From positions 1,426,001 through 1,490,000 of the forward strand of contig NZ_CP039292.1 in assembly GCF_004798665.1 (NCBI RefSeq): 64,000 nt of DNA. The letters run 5' to 3'. The notes under the pieces were generated by a model. It searched no databases, was not told where the DNA came from, and was given only the letters and a program-made list of their open reading frames with translations. The first letter of the stretch is position 1. The number at the start of each line of letters is the position of its first letter. This DNA comes from Actinomyces procaprae. Its GTDB lineage: Bacteria; Actinomycetota; Actinomycetes; Actinomycetales; Actinomycetaceae. Shown piece by piece: positions 44,244 through 57,124 of this stretch. A program made the translations under genes and the position numbers.

Positions 44244-45544
44244 GCCAATACACCGACAAGACCACGCCCGTCCCCGCCGCGGGGCCGGATGGCAAGCCGT
44301 TGACCCGCCGCCAGCTGCGCGAGCTCGAGCGGGAATTCGAGCGTGCCCGGCAGCGCAGCATAGAGATGCACGCCTCGGCGCCCCCGCCTGCGGTCGTGCA
44401 TGTCGACGGCGGCCCCGGTGTGCCCACCGCGGTGGTCCCGTCGGAGCAGGAGCGGCAGGAACCGCCCGCCATTACCGGCGCCCAGCGCGCCATCGGCGCA
44501 GCCCTGGGGCGGCCCCGTCCCCGCGGGCGGGTCGCCGTCGTACTCGCCGTCGTCGTCATCGTCGCGATCGTGCTGGTGCCGGTCATCGTCTCCCGCCTCG
44601 GCGACGGGGGCGAGGCCACGGGCACGGCCACCGGTCAGGTGACCGCGGCGGACGCCCCAATCGACTCCGTCCTGGAGGTCGCCGGACGAGTCGGCTCCGT
44701 ACCGGTGGTCTCATTGAGTGCTCCGCTGGCGCCGGCCACCTCAGTCACGACCGACACACTGATCGCGGGAGACGGCCGCACTCTGTCCCCTGGGGACGCC
44801 GTCCTGCTGTCCGTCTCCACGTTCTCCGGGACCAGCGGTGCGAACACCACCGGCACCCCCACCGGCGTGCGCATCTACCGGGGCACCGTCGATGCCTCTG
44901 CTCTTGGCGAGGTGCTCGCCCAGACGGTCACCGGTATCACGGAGGGGTCCCGACTGGTACTGCGCGCCCCCGTGTCGGGCGCCGACGGCGCCGTCGTCAC
45001 CGAGATCACCGTGGTTGATGTCCTGCCCACCACGGCCTCGGGCCAGGCGCAGGATCCCGCGGACGGCATGCCCGCCGTCACTTTCGGCGACGACGGCAGC
45101 GTGTCCCTGTCGATTGAGGGGCTGGCCGCCCCCACCCGGGCTGTCGCCTCGGTCCTGGTGGCGGGCGATGGGCAGCAGATCGACTCCGGCGACGTCATCA
45201 TCGCCCGCTACGCCTTCGTCACCTGGTCCGACGCCGCCTTGGGCACATCCAGCTACGGCTTCACAACCGTTCCCAGCACGATCGACATGACCAACACCAT
45301 GGCGGGCATCTCTCAGCAGCTGGTGGATGTGACCGTGGGCAGCCGGATCGTGCTGGCCCTGCCGGCCGATCAGGCCGCCGGTGACGACGCGCTGGCTGTA
45401 GTCATCGACATTCTCGCCGTCGCCGCCGACGGCACTGTCACCGACGCCACCTCATCCCCGACCGAGAGCGCCGCCCCCGACGCCGGGGGCGGCATCGTCA
45501 GAGTGACCCCAAGCCCCGGCAGCGCCGGCCAGGAGGAGCAGTAG
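44240..45544 (+). CDS. Membrane-anchored protein with two degenerate FKBP-like domains
   Basis: 434 aa. A charged cytoplasmic N-terminus ([20 protein letters not shown]) precedes one transmembrane helix near residues 95-115 ([20 protein letters not shown]). The outside part has two repeats that each follow the FKBP pattern: G-x-x-L-x-x-GD-V-x-L...SR-L-V-L-x-x-P...V-x-x-I-x-V-V-D-x-L (first about 150-265, second 290-400, with [34 protein letters not shown]). Aromatic active-site residues of true prolyl isomerases are mostly missing. FKBP genes commonly follow pafA; this one overlaps it by 4 bp. Confidence 0.75.
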
Positions 45545-49522: not shown

Positions 49523-50953
49523 ATGCGCAGAGCGAAGATCGTATGCACCCTTGGGCCCGCCACCGATTCTCCTGAACAGGTGCAGGCGCTCGTGGACGCC
49601 GGCATGAACGTATGCCGCATCAACCGTTCCCACGGCCGCGCCGAGGACCAGGAGGAGGTCATAGCGCGCGTGCGCGCCGCCGCTGAGGCCTCGGGCCGCG
49701 CCGTCGCCATCCTGGTTGATCTCCAGGGCCCGAAGATCCGCCTGGGCAACTTCGTTGATGACCAGAAGGTCATGCTGAACAAGGGCGACGAGTTCACCAT
49801 CACCACCGACGACGTCCTGGGCACCGTCAAGCGCGTCTCCACCACCTTCAAGGGACTGCCAGGGGACTGCCGTCCCGGGGACCGGCTGCTGATCGACGAC
49901 GGCAACGTGGCCGTGCGCGTCACCGCCGTAACCGATACCGACGTCGTCACCCGCGTGGAGGTACCCGGCTACGTCTCCAACCACAAGGGCATCAATCTTC
50001 CGGGTGTGGCGGTGTCCGTGCCCGCCCTGAGTGAGAAGGACCGTGAGGACCTGCGCTGGGCGCTCAAGATCGGCGCCGACCTCATCGCTCTGTCCTTCGT
50101 GCGCAACGCCGACGACATCAAGGACGTCCACGAGATCATGGACGAGGTCGGTGTACGCATTCCGGTGATCGCCAAGATTGAGAAGCCGCAGGCCGTGGAG
50201 AACCTGCTGGACATCGTCTCCGCGTTCGACGGCATCATGGTTGCCCGTGGTGACCTCGGCGTCGAGATGCCCCTGGAGGCGGTGCCGCTGGTGCAGAAGC
50301 GCGCCATCGAGCTCGCCCGCCGTCAGGCGAAGCCGGTGATCGTCGCCACCCAGGTGCTGGAGTCGATGATCCAGAACCCGCGTCCGACTCGCGCGGAGGC
50401 TTCCGACTGCGCCAATGCCATCCTCGACGGCGCCGACGCCGTCATGCTCTCCGGGGAGACCTCGGTGGGCGCCTACCCGATCGAGGCCGTGCGCACCATG
50501 GCGAACATCATTGAGAACGTGGAGGAGAACGGCGGCGAGCGTATCGCCCCCTTGGGTTCCTACCCGCAGACCCGCGGCGGTGCCATCACCCGTGCCGCCG
50601 CTGAGATGGGCGAGCAGCTCGACGCCACCTACCTGGTCACCTTCACCCAGTCCGGCGACACCGCTCGCCGCCTGTCCCGTCTGCGCTCAACCATCCCGCT
50701 GCTGGCCTTCACCCCGCTGCGCTCCACCCGCAACCAGCTGTCGGTCTCCTGGGGTGTACAAACCTACGAGGTGCCCGAGGTAAAGCACACCGATGACATG
50801 GTTGATCAGGTCGATGAAGTGCTCCAGGCCAAGCATCTGGCCCAGCCCGGCGACGAGGTGATCATCGTTGCCGGCATGCCCCCGGGCACGCCCGGCTCCA
50901 CCAACTCCATCCGCGTGCACACGGTGGGGGAGCGCGGCGATTACCGGGTGTGA
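49523..50953 (+). CDS. pyk: Pyruvate kinase
   Basis: 476 aa. RRAKIVCTLGPATDSPEQ, VCRINRSHG, VDLQGPKIRLG, the catalytic Lys in IPVIAKIEKPQAVENL and MVARGDLGVEMPLEAVPLVQKR (Glu/Asp Mg ligands) are intact, as is MLSGETSVGAYPIEAV. The C-terminal regulatory domain is complete. It transfers phosphate from PEP to ADP, producing the pyruvate that the ferredoxin oxidoreductase at 1096-4050 could consume. Its end overlaps the convergent gene by 13 bp. Confidence 0.97.
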   Translation: MRRAKIVCTLGPATDSPEQVQALVDAGMNVCRINRSHGRAEDQEEVIARVRAAAEASGRAVAILVDLQGPKIRLGNFVDDQKVMLNKGDEFTITTDDVLGTVKRVSTTFKGLPGDCRPGDRLLIDDGNVAVRVTAVTDTDVVTRVEVPGYVSNHKGINLPGVAVSVPALSEKDREDLRWALKIGADLIALSFVRNADDIKDVHEIMDEVGVRIPVIAKIEKPQAVENLLDIVSAFDGIMVARGDLGVEMPLEAVPLVQKRAIELARRQAKPVIVATQVLESMIQNPRPTRAEASDCANAILDGADAVMLSGETSVGAYPIEAVRTMANIIENVEENGGERIAPLGSYPQTRGGAITRAAAEMGEQLDATYLVTFTQSGDTARRLSRLRSTIPLLAFTPLRSTRNQLSVSWGVQTYEVPEVKHTDDMVDQVDEVLQAKHLAQPGDEVIIVAGMPPGTPGSTNSIRVHTVGERGDYRV

Positions 50954-51606
50954 GCGCCGGGTCGGGCCCGCAGTGATGCGCGGGCAAAACGGGTATCGGC
51001 CCATCGCAACACGCAGTAGAGCAGTTGCGTGGCGCCGGGCATGAAGCCCGCCCCATGGTGGTAGCAGGGGTCCATGGTGGTGACCAGGATCGCGCCGGGC
51101 GTGGTGGACTCGTCCAGGAAGGTGGTCACACCCGCCTCAGCCCCGTCCTCCTCCAGCGTCACCAGTGGCACTGCGCCTTCGGGCAGTTGGAAGACGCCGT
51201 GGTGGTGCCAGATCACGGCGCGTTCAGACAAATACTCCCACACGGGATGCTCCGGGCTGCGGCGCCGCATGCCGGAATCCTCCCCGGTGCGCCACCACCA
51301 GAAGTTGGTGGGTCGTGCTTGCCATTGCAGGCCCGGCAACCACTCCTGGGCGGAGTTCTCCCCGAATACGACCAGGGTGCCGCCGCGTTCGGCGACAGCT
51401 CGCATGGCGGCGGCATGTTCCAGCAGCATCCGGGGGTGGGAGCGGTCCGCGACGAGCAGGACATCGAGAGCGGCGAAGTCTGCCGCCGTCGCGTCGGGCA
51501 GATACAGGTCGGCCAGGCGGTAGGGCCGCAGTGCGGGGTCGGCCAGGGTCTTTAGCTGTGAGCCGGTGCCGGTGTGGGCGAAGCCGATCATGGGTGCGGG
51601 GTTCAT
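50941..51606 (-). CDS. Unknown protein, partner B of the importer operon (GATase-like fold suspected)
   Basis: 221 aa, ATG in an ATGA overlap with the upstream gene, GGAGG 7 nt before it. Alternating strands and helices (YRLADLYLP, ALDVLLVADRSHP, GGTLVVFGEN, EWLPGLQW, EHPVWEYL, GAILVTTMDPCYHHGAGF). Strand-helix order and the HPVW step recall class I glutamine-amidotransferase-like or ThuA-like domains, but no Cys nucleophile elbow is seen. The tail has a His-His pair and a Cys (DPCYHHGAGF) that could bind metal. It shares a diffuse pattern with the gene upstream, so the two look like old paralogues. Last gene of the importer operon. Confidence 0.75.
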   Translation of the reverse strand: MNPAPMIGFAHTGTGSQLKTLADPALRPYRLADLYLPDATAADFAALDVLLVADRSHPRMLLEHAAAMRAVAERGGTLVVFGENSAQEWLPGLQWQARPTNFWWWRTGEDSGMRRRSPEHPVWEYLSERAVIWHHHGVFQLPEGAVPLVTLEEDGAEAGVTTFLDESTTPGAILVTTMDPCYHHGAGFMPGATQLLYCVLRWADTRFARASLRARPGAHTR

Positions 51607-52256
51607 GCGTTACCTCCGAGCCAGTTGCGAATGTTGTCGGTGAGTCGAGTCAGGGTGGTCCCGGGGGTGCGGGCGAAGATTGCCAGATCCAGGCCGGCAT
51701 GAACCACGACACGGCCCTCTGCCACCGGGAACTCCACATCGATGGGCGCCCGCAGCGGTCCCAGACCGTTGATGACCGTGGTGCCTACCGGCAGGTCTAA
51801 CAGGTAGCCCCGACCGTAGAAGCCGGCCACGCCGAACTGTTCCAGTTGCTCCCGGGTACGGGGAATATGCGGCCCGGAACGGTACAGCAGCTCTTCGACA
51901 TCGACGCCGTCCCACACCGGGTGCGAGGCCAGGCGAGTGATGCCCAGGTCGCGCGGGCCGTGATACTCCAGCAGCCGCCATTTGGGCAGGCCGGTCACCC
52001 AGGGCTCCACCACGTGACCGTTGACCAGCATGCGGCCACCGGCCCTCAAGAACGCGTCGAAGTGCGCGCGGTGGCCGGCCAGGTGGCGCTGATCGCACAT
52101 GCCGGAAACGAGGATGCCGGGCGTATGCGCCAGTGCCTCTTCATCCAAGTCGTAGGGGTCGAGGGGGCGAAATCCGTCGGGCACGTCGGCGGCCCCCATG
52201 GTGGGGGAGTGCCCATCTGGTGCGGGCATGAGCCAAAGGGGTTCGTTATGGGTCAT
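51603..52256 (-). CDS. Unknown protein, partner A of the importer operon (GATase-like fold suspected)
   Basis: 217 aa. ATG 52256 overlaps the ATPase stop by one base (TGATG); GGAAAGG precedes it. Layout parallels partner B: FRPLDPYDLDEEAL, GILVSGMCDQRHLAGHRAHFDAFL, GGRMLVNGH, EPWVTGLPKW, SHPVWDGV, then strands ending VVVHAGLDLAIFA. Shared core with B is D-x-R/H...H...GG-x-x-x-V-x-G...W-x-x-GL-x-W...HPVW. A Cys sits in SGMCDQRHL rather than in a canonical nucleophile turn. No signal peptide. Role unknown; the tight coupling suggests it handles the imported ligand. Confidence 0.75.
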   Translation of the reverse strand: MTHNEPLWLMPAPDGHSPTMGAADVPDGFRPLDPYDLDEEALAHTPGILVSGMCDQRHLAGHRAHFDAFLRAGGRMLVNGHVVEPWVTGLPKWRLLEYHGPRDLGITRLASHPVWDGVDVEELLYRSGPHIPRTREQLEQFGVAGFYGRGYLLDLPVGTTVINGLGPLRAPIDVEFPVAEGRVVVHAGLDLAIFARTPGTTLTRLTDNIRNWLGGNA

Positions 52257-53176
52257 CAGCGGGTTCCTTTCCACTCAGGAGGTTCGGTGTGGGCAAGGGT
52301 GGTCTGCGCGGCGGTATGTCGGTGGATTCCGTAGTCAGGGACGACGACGCGTTGCGGCTGGCCTCCGATGTTCACTTCGGGGGTCGCCACCGGCAGGCCG
52401 TACAGACAGGAAAGGGTGTTACCGGTCAGCAGTCTGGCCGTGGCGTCGATGCGAATATCCGCGGAGTCCACGATCAGCAGTGTCCGGTCCGCTATCCGCA
52501 ACGCATGGTCGGGGTGATGACTGGTCATCACCACGGCCATACCGTCCTCTGCCAGGGCGTGGAGGACGCCCAGCACACAGGCCTGATTGCGCAGGTCCAG
52601 AGCGGAGGCGGGCTCATCCAGGACCAGTGCGCGGCAGCCGGTGGCCAGTGCGCGGGCGATCAGGACTAATTGACGCTCACCGCCGGACAGGGCCTGGTAG
52701 TCGCGGTCGCGCAGGTGGATGATGCCGACGCGCTCCATCGCCGCCTCTGCGGCCTCATGGTCGGCGCGGCCCGGACTGGCGTAGGCGCGTACGAAGCGGG
52801 CGCGACCCATCAGCACCATATTCAGTACTGAGAAGGCGGCTGTTGCGCCGTGGGACTGGGGGACGTAGCCGATGATGGCACGCTGGGTGACCTCACCCTC
52901 GGTGGGGTTGCGCAGCCCGGCCAGGCAGGTGACCAGTGTGGTCTTGCCGTGGGCGTTCGGTCCGAGCACGGCCAGCACCTCCCCGGCCCCCACCCGTAGG
53001 TCCACGCCGCGGAAGATCCACCGGCTGCGTCCGTACCTGAAACCGAGGCCGGCGGCGTCGAGCACCGTCTCGGGCCGCCTGGTGCGGGTCGCCTCGGCGG
53101 TCGCGGCGCCGACAGCACCAGTAGTCACTGAATTAGTCACTGAATTAGTCATTGAGTTAGTCATTGAATTAGTCAC
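52256..53176 (-). CDS. Iron/siderophore-type ABC transporter ATP-binding protein
   Basis: 306 aa as read from the first GTG at 53176. Walker A is GPNAHGKTT (a variant with Ala-His in place of the usual Gly-Ala/Ser-Gly), Q-loop GYVPQSHG, signature LSGGERQLVLIARAL, Walker B ALVLDEPASALD and switch SHHPDHAL. The N-terminus reads MTNSMTNSMTNSVTNSVT because a 12-bp tandem repeat covers the start, giving five in-frame ATG/GTG codons. A C-terminal extension of about 40 residues carries several His. It energises import with the permease it overlaps. Confidence 0.93.
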   Translation of the reverse strand: MTNSMTNSMTNSVTNSVTTGAVGAATAEATRTRRPETVLDAAGLGFRYGRSRWIFRGVDLRVGAGEVLAVLGPNAHGKTTLVTCLAGLRNPTEGEVTQRAIIGYVPQSHGATAAFSVLNMVLMGRARFVRAYASPGRADHEAAEAAMERVGIIHLRDRDYQALSGGERQLVLIARALATGCRALVLDEPASALDLRNQACVLGVLHALAEDGMAVVMTSHHPDHALRIADRTLLIVDSADIRIDATARLLTGNTLSCLYGLPVATPEVNIGGQPQRVVVPDYGIHRHTAAQTTLAHTEPPEWKGTR

Positions 53177-53182
53177 TGAGCC
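53123..53182 (-). repeat. 12-bp tandem repeat, about five units, across the permease stop and ATPase start
   Basis: On the plus strand the units are AGTCACTGAATT (53123, 53135), AGTCATTGAGTT (53147), AGTCATTGAATT (53159) and a partial AGTCACTGAGCC (53171). Read on the minus strand each unit gives Met/Val-Thr-Asn-Ser. The permease stop (53169-53171) is inside the array. Gain or loss of units keeps both frames and changes the number of start codons. Confidence 0.95.
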
Positions 53183-54227
53183 ACACCCGCCTTCTGAAGC
53201 GTACGAGCAGAACCACGAAGAACGGCGCGCCGATGATCGCGGTGAGAATTCCCAGCGGCACTTCGACCGAGGCGATGGAACGGGCGAGGGTGTCCACCGC
53301 CGTGAGGTAGCCGCCGCCCAGCAGGAATGAGGCGGGCAGCAGCACCCGGTTGTCGCCGCCCACCAGTAGACGGGCCAGATGTGGTACGAGCAGGCCCACC
53401 CAGCCGATGACGCCGGACACGGAGATGGCGGCCGCCGTCAGTAGGGCCACGGCCAGCAGTGCCGCGTTGCGGTAGGGGGCGGGCGGCACGCCCAGGGCGC
53501 GGGCGTCGTCGTCGCCCAGAGACAGGATGTTGAGCCGCCAGCGCAGGAGGAAGACGGTGAGCGTGCCCAGCAGTATCGGCGGCAGGGCGGTGAGCACACC
53601 GCCCCATCCGGCCGTCGCCAGGGAGCCGAGCAGCCAGAACGTAATGGCGGGCAGATCCCGGTAGGGGTCGGCGACATAGGTGAGTAACGAGGTCAGTGCG
53701 CTGAACAGGGCGCTGACAACCACGCCGCCGAGTACGATCATCAGCAGGGGTGCGCTGGAGACGATGCGACTGAATGCCACTACGCAGCCCAGTGAGCCTA
53801 GTCCGAACAGGAAGGCGCCGCCCACCAGCCAGGAGGAACCGAGTCCCAGCACCATGGTCAGTACCCCGCCGAAGGACGCGCCGGCGGATACGCCAAGGAC
53901 CTGGGGGCTCACCAGCGGGTTGCGGAACACCGATTGCAGTACGGCACCCGCCGTCGCCAGGGCGGCACCGACCAGGAAGGACAGGACTACTCGTGGCAGC
54001 CGTACCTCGAATACAATGCTCGCCTCCTGGGCGTACCAGGTGCGTTCCAGCGGGATTACCCGGTCGATCAGCATGCGGGCGACCTCTACAACCGGGATGC
54101 TGAATCGGCCCGCCGCCAGCGCCAGCAGGCACACCACCAGCGAAACCACTCCGATCACGATGACGGTCACCCAGGGCATTCCCCGGTACCGCCGACCGGT
54201 GGGGGGATCAGCGGGAGAACTGGTCAT
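53169..54227 (-). CDS. Iron/siderophore-type ABC transporter permease (FecCD family)
   Basis: 352 aa from ATG 54227, overlapping the binding-protein gene by 20 bp. FecCD features: RLPRVVLSFLVGAALATAGAVLQSVFRNPLVSPQVLGVSAGASFGGV, FWLLGSLATAGWGGV, DDDARALGVP and GVIGWVGLLVPHLARLLVGGDNRVLLPASFLLGG, with about nine to ten membrane segments. It is the channel for a ferric chelate, haem or cobalamin-like ligand. The last codons run into the 12-bp repeat. Confidence 0.93.
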   Translation of the reverse strand: MTSSPADPPTGRRYRGMPWVTVIVIGVVSLVVCLLALAAGRFSIPVVEVARMLIDRVIPLERTWYAQEASIVFEVRLPRVVLSFLVGAALATAGAVLQSVFRNPLVSPQVLGVSAGASFGGVLTMVLGLGSSWLVGGAFLFGLGSLGCVVAFSRIVSSAPLLMIVLGGVVVSALFSALTSLLTYVADPYRDLPAITFWLLGSLATAGWGGVLTALPPILLGTLTVFLLRWRLNILSLGDDDARALGVPPAPYRNAALLAVALLTAAAISVSGVIGWVGLLVPHLARLLVGGDNRVLLPASFLLGGGYLTAVDTLARSIASVEVPLGILTAIIGAPFFVVLLVRFRRRVWLSD

Positions 54228-55365
54228 AGCCCTGCGCCTCGGCGTTGGCATCGAAGCGCAGGATCTGGTCGATCTCATCCTGCGACACTGAGTATCCGTA
54301 GAGGAATTCGTAGTTCTCCCGCAGCTGCTCGCGCAGGTCGAATGCGGCGGTGTCCGGGTAGGCGATCTGGGCCGCCCACATCATGGTCAGATGCGATTCG
54401 GCGCTGGGCGGATCCCACCAGAAGCCTCCGGAGGGAACCGCGTAGACCTTGTGGTTCTTGACGGCCCGCAACTGCGACAGAGCGGAGTCGGCATACAGAT
54501 CCGCCGGCGTCAGGGCCGTCATGGAGGAGACGAAGATGATCTCCGGATCCCAGGCGAGCAGTTGCTCCACGCTGGTGGCGTTGGAGGTCGAGTAGTCGAC
54601 GTCCGCGCCGACATTCGTGGCCCCGCACAACGTCATCCAGGTATTCATGTAACCGCGGGTGGAACTCATGCCGGCGTTGTAGCCGGAGTCGCCGGCCGAG
54701 CGCAGGAACAGGACGGTTGGCGAGGCGGTCTGCTGGGCGGCGAACTCCTGCAGCGAGGCGATGGTCTGGTGCATGCGCTGAAGGATCTGCTCGCCCCGAT
54801 CCTCGCGTTGCAAGAGGGTCGCGAACATCTTGATCCACTGCTCCAGGTACTCCTGGGTGCCGTAGCGCAGTCCGATCACCGGGTATCCGGCGGCCTCAAT
54901 GGGTTCTATGTAGGTGGCGGAGTCCCCCTGGTCGGCCCACTGGATTACGACGTCGGGGTTGATGCGGGTGATCTCCTCGACATTCGGGATGAAGTCGGAG
55001 TTGGCGACGGTGTTGTTTGAGACCGCGGCGGGGAACATCGTCTCGAACACGGAGCCGCGGTCGCGTTTGACTGTGGATTCGTTCACACCGGAGATGCGGT
55101 CGTAGCCCTGGTCGATCGCGGTGAGGATCGAGGGGGAGGGGATGACCGTGGTGACGATGGACTCGATCGATCGGGTGAAGGTGTGAGTCTTGTCGCGTTG
55201 ATCGGTGACGACGATCGGCTCAGCCAGAGTGGCGCCGCGCTCGGCGGGGATGTCCTGACCGGAGCGTGAGGAACAGGCGCCGACGGCGAATAGCGCGGGC
55301 AGTGTCGCGGCGACTCCGGCGGCCGCCCGGATGACGGTGCGCCGTGGGTAGGGGTGCACGTGCAT
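54208..55365 (-). CDS. Iron/siderophore-type ABC transporter substrate-binding lipoprotein
   Basis: 385 aa. The signal peptide has a twin-arginine-like RRTVIRAA, a hydrophobic core and lipobox VGAC, so the mature protein is membrane-tethered. Type III (PF01497-like) binding fold: SIESIVTTVIPSPSILTAIDQGYDRISGVN, VEEITRINPDVVIQWAD, and AVKNHKVYAVPSGGFWWDPPSAESHL. A possible iron-box-overlapped promoter lies about 75 bp upstream. Ligand unknown; ferric siderophore is the family default. Confidence 0.92.
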   Translation of the reverse strand: MHVHPYPRRTVIRAAAGVAATLPALFAVGACSSRSGQDIPAERGATLAEPIVVTDQRDKTHTFTRSIESIVTTVIPSPSILTAIDQGYDRISGVNESTVKRDRGSVFETMFPAAVSNNTVANSDFIPNVEEITRINPDVVIQWADQGDSATYIEPIEAAGYPVIGLRYGTQEYLEQWIKMFATLLQREDRGEQILQRMHQTIASLQEFAAQQTASPTVLFLRSAGDSGYNAGMSSTRGYMNTWMTLCGATNVGADVDYSTSNATSVEQLLAWDPEIIFVSSMTALTPADLYADSALSQLRAVKNHKVYAVPSGGFWWDPPSAESHLTMMWAAQIAYPDTAAFDLREQLRENYEFLYGYSVSQDEIDQILRFDANAEAQGYDQFSR

Positions 55366-55438
55366 GAGGCTCCTTCAGAACTCGAGGCGACCGGCCCATG
55401 CGGGAGAGTCCCGCCAACCGGTCCAGTAAGTGCTGCCT

Positions 55439-55467
55439 ACCCTAACTTAATGTGATCGTTTTGTGAA
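55439..55467 (-). promoter_or_regulatory. Promoter with DtxR/IdeR-like half-site before the binding-protein gene
   Basis: Minus strand: TTCACA (-35, 55467-55462), 17-bp spacer, TAGGGT (-10, 55444-55439). The stretch TTAAGTTAGG (55450-55441) overlaps the -10 and matches one half of the DtxR/IdeR iron box TTAGGTTAG; the other half is poor. Iron repression is plausible but the match is partial. Confidence 0.5.
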
Positions 55468-55521
55468 CCTATGACGGTATGTCAGTTCATCCGGGCGGCC
55501 CCAGGCGGGGGTGATTGCGGC

Positions 55522-56406
55522 TCAGGTGAGGCGCCTGATCAGGGGGAGAGTCGCGCAGCGGAAGCCTCCCGGGAAGCGTGTGACCTCGCTGAACTTCAAA
55601 GGCACTGGGGTGATGCCGCGCGAACGGAGTTCACGCTCCAGACGGGTAGCGCGCTCGTCGATGACTATGTGATCGGGAGCCAGTGCGAAGGTGTTGACCA
55701 TGAGTGCGAGCGTCTCCGCTTCGGTGGCCTCGATCAGCTCGAGGTGTTGTGCTACGCGCTCGCGCGAGCGAGGCGTGAGGGCGGGTGAGTAGATGTATCC
55801 CAGGCCGGGACCAACGAGGGTGAGCTTGGTGTCAAGGTGGACCACACCCCGGTGTGAGAACTCGATGGGTATGATCTCGCGATCGATACCCGCCCGGGCG
55901 AATGCCTGCCGCAATGAGCCGACCCCCTTGAGGTCGGTGGCCTCGCTCAGTCCTACGAGCACGACATCATCGGTGACTATGACGTCCCCGCCCTCAATGT
56001 GGCCATCGTCCAGGGGGACCACGCGTGAGACCTCTGCGAGTAGCGGATAGAGTGCCCGCTGCTCGCGTCGGCGCACAGGGTCCGCCGAGCGGGCGAGGAA
56101 CAGGACGTCATCGACCGCGAAGGCGATATCGCGCGGGTACAGCTGTACCGAGACGTCATCGATAACGCCCAGCGTGTGTACCACTACCCCGGACTCGCGC
56201 AAAACGGAGACGAACTGTGCGTGCTCGCGCTCGGCAATGTCGTGATCCGGGATGCTCACGGTGTTCTTGGAGAGGTAGAACGCGTAGCTCGGGTTCGGAC
56301 TGCGGAGTGTCTCGCGCACCAGTGGCCACCATCCGAATCGCTTGTACGGTCCGACGACCACTTCCTTCAAGGGGGCGATGTCGCTGGGGTTGTGCACTTG
56401 GATCAT
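55522..56406 (-). CDS. Amidinotransferase-fold enzyme (dimethylargininase/arginine-deiminase-like)
   Basis: 294 aa. Guanidino-modifying-enzyme features: VQLYPRDIAFAVDDVLFLA, the substrate-binding GGD in DDGHIEGGDVIV, catalytic His in VVHLDTKLTLVG and catalytic Cys near the C-terminus in FPGGFRCATLPL. Such enzymes hydrolyse methylarginines or arginine to citrulline, or transfer amidino groups. It lies between tetR and the importer operon on the same strand, 70 bp after tetR, 156 bp before the importer gene. A link to the importer, for example in making or modifying a guanidino-containing ligand, is only speculation. Confidence 0.87.
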   Translation of the reverse strand: MIQVHNPSDIAPLKEVVVGPYKRFGWWPLVRETLRSPNPSYAFYLSKNTVSIPDHDIAEREHAQFVSVLRESGVVVHTLGVIDDVSVQLYPRDIAFAVDDVLFLARSADPVRRREQRALYPLLAEVSRVVPLDDGHIEGGDVIVTDDVVLVGLSEATDLKGVGSLRQAFARAGIDREIIPIEFSHRGVVHLDTKLTLVGPGLGYIYSPALTPRSRERVAQHLELIEATEAETLALMVNTFALAPDHIVIDERATRLERELRSRGITPVPLKFSEVTRFPGGFRCATLPLIRRLT

Positions 56407-56476
56407 GTTGCTCCTCGGGTCTGGTATTGGTGTGGCGGGCTCGATGTTGTTCGGCCGGCCCGGGTGAATCCAGGGG

Positions 56477-57034
56477 TCAGCGGGGCTCGAGGAGGGGCGC
56501 TATGCCCCGGACGAGCTGTTCCGCGTCAAGGTCAGGATCTAATGCGCGCTGCAGCAGAAACCCGTCAACGGCGGCCACCAAGGCGAGTGCCTTGGCCTGG
56601 GCGTCCGCTGTCGTTGAGTCGGTACGCACGCGTAGTCGCTCGGCCAGGCGGGCGCGGAAGGCGGAGAACATTGCGGCCAGGTCGCGCCGCAGTGCGGCGT
56701 CGTGTGTGGCCGCAATCAGCGCCTCGTTCAGTAGGGCGGCGCCCGGATGAGCGGGTCCAACATTGAGTTGAAGGAGGAAGGATGTCAGTCCCTCACGAAG
56801 GTCGGGAGCCTCCATTGCCGCTTGGAATGGGCCATCCAGAAGATCTCGTGCGCCCTCATATGCGGCAGTGCGCCGTAATGCCTCAATGCTCCCCACGTGG
56901 TAGTGGACGAGTCCGGGGCTGACTGCGGCGCGCTCGGCCACACGGCGGGTGGTCACCATCTCCCAGCCGCCCTCGACTACCAGTTCCTGTGCGGCGGTGA
57001 CCAATGCCTGACGAGTCGATGCTGAATCGGGCAC
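56477..57034 (-). CDS. TetR-family transcriptional regulator
   Basis: 185 aa from GTG 57034, chosen because AGGAGG lies 6 nt upstream; the frame is open to 57124. HTH: ALVTAAQELVVEGGWEMVTTRRVAERAAVSPGLVHYHVGSIEAL. The C-terminal ligand domain (LTSFLLQLNVGPAHPGAALLNEAL) is variable. Upstream at 57072-57115 is an 18-bp perfect inverted repeat, a natural autoregulatory operator. It probably also controls the amidinotransferase-fold gene downstream. Confidence 0.9.
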   Translation of the reverse strand: MPDSASTRQALVTAAQELVVEGGWEMVTTRRVAERAAVSPGLVHYHVGSIEALRRTAAYEGARDLLDGPFQAAMEAPDLREGLTSFLLQLNVGPAHPGAALLNEALIAATHDAALRRDLAAMFSAFRARLAERLRVRTDSTTADAQAKALALVAAVDGFLLQRALDPDLDAEQLVRGIAPLLEPR

Positions 57035-57071
57035 GCGATCCTCCTGACTGTGTTGGTAGATGGGCGACGGC

Positions 57072-57115
57072 CTTGTACGTTTGCCTTGGACGATCGCCCA
57101 AGGCAAACGTACAAG
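57072..57115. promoter_or_regulatory. 18-bp perfect inverted repeat, probable TetR operator
   Basis: CTTGTACGTTTGCCTTGG (57072-57089) and CCAAGGCAAACGTACAAG (57098-57115) are exact reverse complements around ACGATCGC. The dyad ends 38 bp before the tetR start. Length and symmetry fit a TetR-type site; no T-run supports termination. Confidence 0.75.
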
Positions 57116-57124
57116 AGTCTTCAC

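Follow-up and report, generated by a model that had tools for sequence, protein, structure and literature searches.

The 64,000-nucleotide (nt) window analysed here, from Actinomyces procaprae (contig NZ_CP039292.1, positions 1,426,001 to 1,490,000), carries an ATP-binding cassette (ABC) importer operon that ends in two genes without a family name, which we call A and B. The operon occupies positions 50941-55365 of the window on the minus strand, and its five head-to-tail genes encode a substrate-binding lipoprotein (SBP), a FecCD-type permease, an ATPase, partner A and partner B. We propose, with a probability of about one half, that A and B form a cytosolic heterodimer that frees or processes an imported ferric chelate as part of an iron-regulated uptake operon. 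Searches of an open-licence literature library listed no paper on the A-B pair.

A scan of 84,980 species genomes for stretches encoding a relative of B gave 322 confirmed relatives, the best 80 of which form the set of loci compared here. The query set was mainly alphaproteobacterial, so the counts lean towards the Rhizobiales, and genes were called by a longest-open-reading-frame (ORF) script and grouped by BLAST, so that starts are rough. Among the 88 copies of B in these loci, 58 lie beside A and 29 are fused to it, giving an adjoining or fused A in 87/88; the A half of the last copy falls below the score limit. A comes first in 84 pairs or fusions and B in 3, natural fusions occur in both orders, and the two proteins co-diverge (r=0.88 over 89 loci). 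Together, the pairing, the two-order fusions and the co-divergence provide strong evidence that A and B work as one complex, in line with the partnership put forward in the original prediction.

The two partners, of approximately 220 residues each, share the spaced pattern from which their kinship had been proposed: a D-x-R/H element (DQRH in A, DRSH in B), a glycine pair (positions 79-80 in A, 75-76 in B), a tryptophan motif (WLPGLQW in B, and WVTGLPKW in A, one residue longer than W-x-x-GL-x-W) and HPVW (at 118 in A, 120 in B). That this represents homology beyond chance is backed by BLASTP of A against B (E=4e-4) and by a B profile that picks up an A relative at E=3.7e-16. No characterised family was matched in Pfam, NCBIfam or PDB sequence searches, which agrees with the earlier claim that neither protein resembles siderophore reductases or hydrolases. 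A has zero Pfam or NCBIfam matches at E≤1, those of B are all far below cut-off, and PDB sequence searches with A, B and the third gene C described below (single sequences and profiles) returned nothing meaningful. The ThuA model (PF06283) does not match A or B of the window at E≤1; some family members show weak Pfam matches to ThuA, DUF4159 and DUF4350, those to ThuA being found in 4/35 B members and 0/35 A members.

Structure prediction gave both proteins the same kind of fold. The AlphaFold model of a natural A-B fusion (predicted local distance difference test score, pLDDT, 94; predicted template-modelling score, pTM, 0.93) contains two class-I-amidotransferase/ThuA-like domains, the fold of A being known from the A half of this fusion, and the window's own B gave a model (pLDDT 90.4, pTM 0.88) whose fold matches GATase1/ThuA-like proteins. 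A viral structure library yielded a single match at E≤0.001. Class I glutamine amidotransferases have an invariant nucleophile Cys, and no Cys is conserved in both A and B: A has none in columns conserved at 0.9, and the sole conserved Cys column of B (position 54, 0.96 of 52) is Asp in the window protein. The predicted GATase/ThuA-like fold lacking the Cys nucleophile was thus borne out on the models and on the conserved columns. In B, H120, H134, D179 and H183 are kept in 106/106 sequences and H136 in 99/106.

An importer was found near A-B in 71/80 loci, scored by gene group within 6.5 kb in any orientation: 57 FecCD, 8 Opp type (Opp/Nik-like), 3 FecCD plus Opp, 2 SsuABC type and 1 Opp plus SsuABC. 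Four of the other loci lie at contig edges, two beginning there with an ABC gene (L036, L078) and two with A within 0.1 and 1.2 kb of the edge (L040, L053). Paenibacillus and two Actinomycetota other than our own (G063, G087) have an Opp-like SBP next to the pair, and in one haloarchaeon the pair is flanked on one side by an extracellular SBP and on the other by an ‘iron ABC transporter permease’, which we read as Fbp-like. The predicted coupling to importers therefore stands, but not as a bond to FecCD alone, and homologues occur mainly beside importers: A-B is coupled to various transporters rather than to one importer class. Because the same pair accompanies FecCD, Opp-like, SsuABC-like and Fbp-like importers, we infer that its target is the cargo, once imported, rather than the transporter.

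Iron-type regulation is supported by three lines of evidence: RirA boxes in the Rhizobiales, DtxR-type boxes in the Actinomycetota and an iron-depletion response in Aliivibrio. The motif TGA-N9-TCA occurs in 42/89 regions upstream of SBPs, against a shuffle mean of 4.6 and counts of 2-10 for other spacings; the window's own copy, one of the 42, lies within a coding region and is surely there by chance. Counted per transcription unit in the Rhizobiales, the motif is present in 34/79 units compared with 69/502 others (p=9e-9, although the counts, which include related species, are less independent than this p-value implies), and other spacings give 1-9. Although a TTGAC promoter element frequently overlaps the motif, the control with other spacings argues against promoter overlap alone as the cause of the excess. 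Two papers describe TGA-N9-TCA as the RirA operator (PMC8822346, PMC10510648), and the former reports the motif in 5/10 RirA peaks and cites Rodionov 2006 as its source. The RirA box is also present in 2/2 A-B units that start with an Opp-type SBP. A strict RirA pattern was found 5 times upstream of the 89 SBPs and a looser Zur pattern once, whereas patterns for NikR, Irr, Mur, ModE and Fur and a stricter Zur pattern gave 0 each.

In the window, a DtxR/IdeR-box-like site at 55427-55445 (strand unassigned), 61 bp before the SBP gene, matches 14/19 positions of the consensus and is the sole site of ≥13 in the 64 kb. At the corresponding position, three genus relatives carry DtxR-type sites that match 14, 14 and 15 of the 19 letters. 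Within the genome of the window, leaving aside two weak FecCD matches, the comparison covered three further strong FecCD systems, which at their SBP genes have sites of 15/19 (between a divergent SBP and permease), of 14/19 and 15/19, and of 13/19. A looser DtxR pattern falls at seven distinct places, three of which are these operators; in the genome it is as common as its reversed control (8 versus 8). In G087, where A-B and an Opp-like SBP gene are divergent, the intervening gap holds sites of 17/19 and 16/19, so iron regulation can extend to pairs linked to Opp importers.

The third line comes from the Aliivibrio salmonicida plasmid pVSAL320, on which a B-A fusion accompanies the single annotated ABC importer. 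In an expression study, iron depletion raised VSAL_p320_27 (periplasmic) 2.4-fold and VSAL_p320_29 (ATP-binding) 1.7-fold (PMC4324432), and the genome paper terms the importer iron-dependent and probably Fur-regulated (PMC2627896). From the tag names and the sole importer on the plasmid, these genes appear to belong to the A-B operon.

Our data are compatible with a model in which the operon serves iron-regulated uptake of a ferric chelate. Import of the ferric complex into the cytoplasm would fall to the lipoprotein, permease and ATPase. There, an obligate A-B heterodimer, whose two GATase1-like domains lack the amidotransferase Cys, would receive the complex and then either free the iron or break or remodel the chelator. 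The operon, the pairing, the fold, the residue conservation and the iron-type operators are computational results, and the complex in the cell, its site and the release of iron are what the model proposes. H120, H134, D179 and H183 of B, nearly always joined by H136, may form the metal- or ligand-handling site, as judged from their conservation.

Several observations weigh against this model. The operators speak for iron regulation and not for the identity of the cargo. At Opp-type SBPs the RirA box is found in 3/15 cases, near the background of 110/970, and no DtxR-type site precedes A-B and its Opp-like importer in G063. DtxR-type sites of 14-15/19 also occur away from importers, in the control stretches L134, L135 and L137, and the exact DtxR consensus with ≤3 mismatches gives 0 sites in the genome against 2 for the reversed control. 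The Aliivibrio copy belongs to a more divergent B-A fusion class in which R55, H136 and H184 of B are mostly replaced, and a fur-mutant study mentions no p320 gene in its main text (PMC5511505). Five of the 80 loci (L020, L021, L076, L082, L084) have no importer nearby. G028 carries a related SBP-FecCD-ATPase importer (34-53% identity) without A-B (L119, L121), with no DtxR-type site ≥13 and divergent from a DUF6390 gene and from genes that we read as hydrogenase-like. TonB receptors lie near 5/80 loci, and in a Sulfurovum bin (L048, 7107-10706) a HupE/UreJ-like gene lies between an Opp importer and A-B. The L048 and G028 contexts both hint at nickel.

These contexts lead to a rather improbable alternative, in which the cargo is nickel, another metal chelate or a tetrapyrrole rather than iron in general. 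Besides the hydrogenase-like genes beside the A-B-less importer of G028, it draws on the heavy-metal DUF4213/DUF364 gene that directly follows B in L048, on ABM-family genes in L012 and L064, on Opp SBPs with scores for several models that include NikA and CntA, and on the TonB receptors of L005 and L009, whose best scores are on heme-receptor models; all of these SBP and receptor scores are below cut-off. The RirA, DtxR-type and iron-depletion evidence argues against a non-iron cargo, as do the counts upstream of SBPs for NikR (0/89) and Zur (0/89 and 1/89). Nickel may be the cargo of some A-B branches.

We also consider it unlikely, though less so, that A-B is a catabolic hydrolase or lyase of the ThuA kind, which would act on the organic part of the chelate to yield carbon, nitrogen or phosphorus, iron being only the key that admits the chelate. 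The fold and the weak ThuA matches are of that kind, but iron-type regulation in three lineages and remaining neighbours that vary from locus to locus fit such a role poorly. Least probable of all would be a role without any chemistry, in which A-B senses the ligand level in the cytosol, or acts there as a gate, and adjusts the importer accordingly. GATase-like domains can be binding modules, and several of the fold matches are glycosidase domains that we take to be non-catalytic; against a sensor stand the pairing with several unrelated importer classes and the three His and the Asp that all 106 B sequences retain, which have the look of a metal or catalytic site.

The original prediction described a two-protein system. 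While the pairing of A and B holds, many copies also have a third gene, C (approximately 170 residues), found near A-B in at least 51/80 loci. This is an undercount, since in eight loci (group c14) an opposite-strand ORF near B was kept, which in L009 covers an annotated C. C proteins carry an invariant HG and an RD-x-x-E-x-x-TR stretch, and 10/26 members match FmdE (PF02663) at E≤0.1 (best 3.7e-4), with scores such as 19.9, 16.2 and 15.5 bits, below the cut-off of 22.9. C is an optional part: it was not found in the genome of the window, in the three genus relatives or in G063, and in G087 it lies on a different contig. On a Labrenzia conjugative plasmid (L007:11560-13101, L013:7145-9472), the genes after C are phnG and phnH of carbon-phosphorus lyase and, on the other side of the record start, phnJ and two ABC ATPase genes.

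The A-B system is rare, patchy and accessory. A was found in 4/39 genomes (25 of the genus, including that of the window, and 14 of the order), all 4 from the genus, and B in 3/396 genomes of a phylum sample, again including our own. Three genus relatives have the same five genes in the same order next to the pyruvate kinase gene (pyk), with the SBP and pyk of G012 each read as two overlapping pieces. In G018, of the same genus, only broken SBP pieces lie beside pyk (L120:5272-5702) and neither A nor B was found there, which suggests loss of the cassette from this site. Among plasmid records, tblastn detected B in 32, of which 6 are typed as conjugative and 4 as mobilizable, and A in 24; rhizobia, Methylocystis, Cupriavidus, Paenibacillus and haloarchaea are represented in the B records. 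A first genome scan by tblastn with the window's A returned zero relatives, and A had no match in phages. Sinorhizobium SMb21429-21432 was dropped as a candidate homologue, as no S. meliloti record is among the matches listed (40 of 44 tblastn). Several rhizobia (L011, L025, L054, L057, L083, L088, L092) carry two A-B systems close together, often one pair or A-B fusion and one B-A fusion.

At the level of individual genes, the ORFs were found on the minus strand as originally described. The SBP gene (54208-55365) encodes a protein with a lipobox (VGAC) and a Peripla_BP_2 domain (PF01497, E=1.1e-28); its closest solved chain, 4ovk (E=8.2e-45), is named only ‘Periplasmic binding protein’. The permease (53169-54278 as longest ORF, with a true start probably further in) matches PF01032 at E=1.2e-85, and its top NCBIfam model is a BtuC, below that model's cut-off. 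The ATPase (52256-53176) matches ABC_tran (PF00005) at E=9.3e-24. As all three Pfam matches are above cut-off and the genes are adjacent and overlapping, the transport part is a FecCD/Peripla_BP_2 ABC importer. A (51603-52274), whose homologues adjoin B, is a GATase1-like protein and B (50941-51606) a GATase1/ThuA-like one. In operon order the genes overlap by 71, 8, 19 and 4 nt, the 71 and 19 nt being overlaps of longest ORFs; an internal ATG of A at 52256, which shares one base with the ATPase stop (TGATG), is its probable start. The 3′ end of B overlaps the convergent pyk by 13 nt.

Ahead of the SBP gene, all four genus members have a second conserved dyad, TGAC-N5-GTCA (window 55472-55484). 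Further upstream (55522-57124) lie an arginine-deiminase/DDAH-like gene and a TetR gene, which were rejected as operon parts because two syntenic relatives (L101, L103) lack them at this position; the contig of the third ends too early to judge. Rfam riboswitches were sought as a ligand clue: the window gave tRNAs only, and 17 loci (9 and 8, of 96 fetched) gave no match. ARAGORN reported a 92-nt tRNA-Asp at 45108-45199 that Rfam did not report at its gathering score.

The A-B pair is widespread, patchy and iron-regulated and lacks a family name. If the model is correct, many importers with a cargo not yet known gain a cytosolic partner with a testable job, and the pair could lead to the chelates of those importers.

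Siderophore reductases (SIP/FSR) and esterases (Fes/IroD) free iron after import, and to our knowledge such release has been described for only a few chelate classes. A-B is proposed to be likewise cytosolic, post-importer and iron-controlled, but no SIP/FSR or Fes/IroD model is among the Pfam or NCBIfam matches of A or B. It is conceivable, if short of an even chance, that A-B (with or without C) would constitute a third, undescribed route to iron from imported chelates, by way of a histidine-site heterodimer of two Cys-less GATase-like domains in place of a flavin or Fe-S reductase or an esterase, and shared by bacteria and haloarchaea that employ several unrelated importer types. The ThuA-like/class I GATase1 superfamily shares the modelled fold of A and B and accounts for the weak matches of some members; A and B differ from it in falling below family cut-offs, in lacking a Cys conserved in both, and in being paired and mostly beside importers. 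FmdE is matched only weakly, by the C of other loci. DUF364/DUF4213 ‘heavy-metal chelation’ proteins such as Dhaf4260 are, according to its structural report, cytosolic and encoded beside metal ABC importers, with an enolase-like and Rossmann-like fold (PMC2954201); they set a precedent for the kind of cytosolic importer partner that A-B may be, but DUF364 is absent among the matches of A and B. Post-import handling of metal chelates is a known job, and what appears new, within the open-licence literature searched, is the A-B protein pair.
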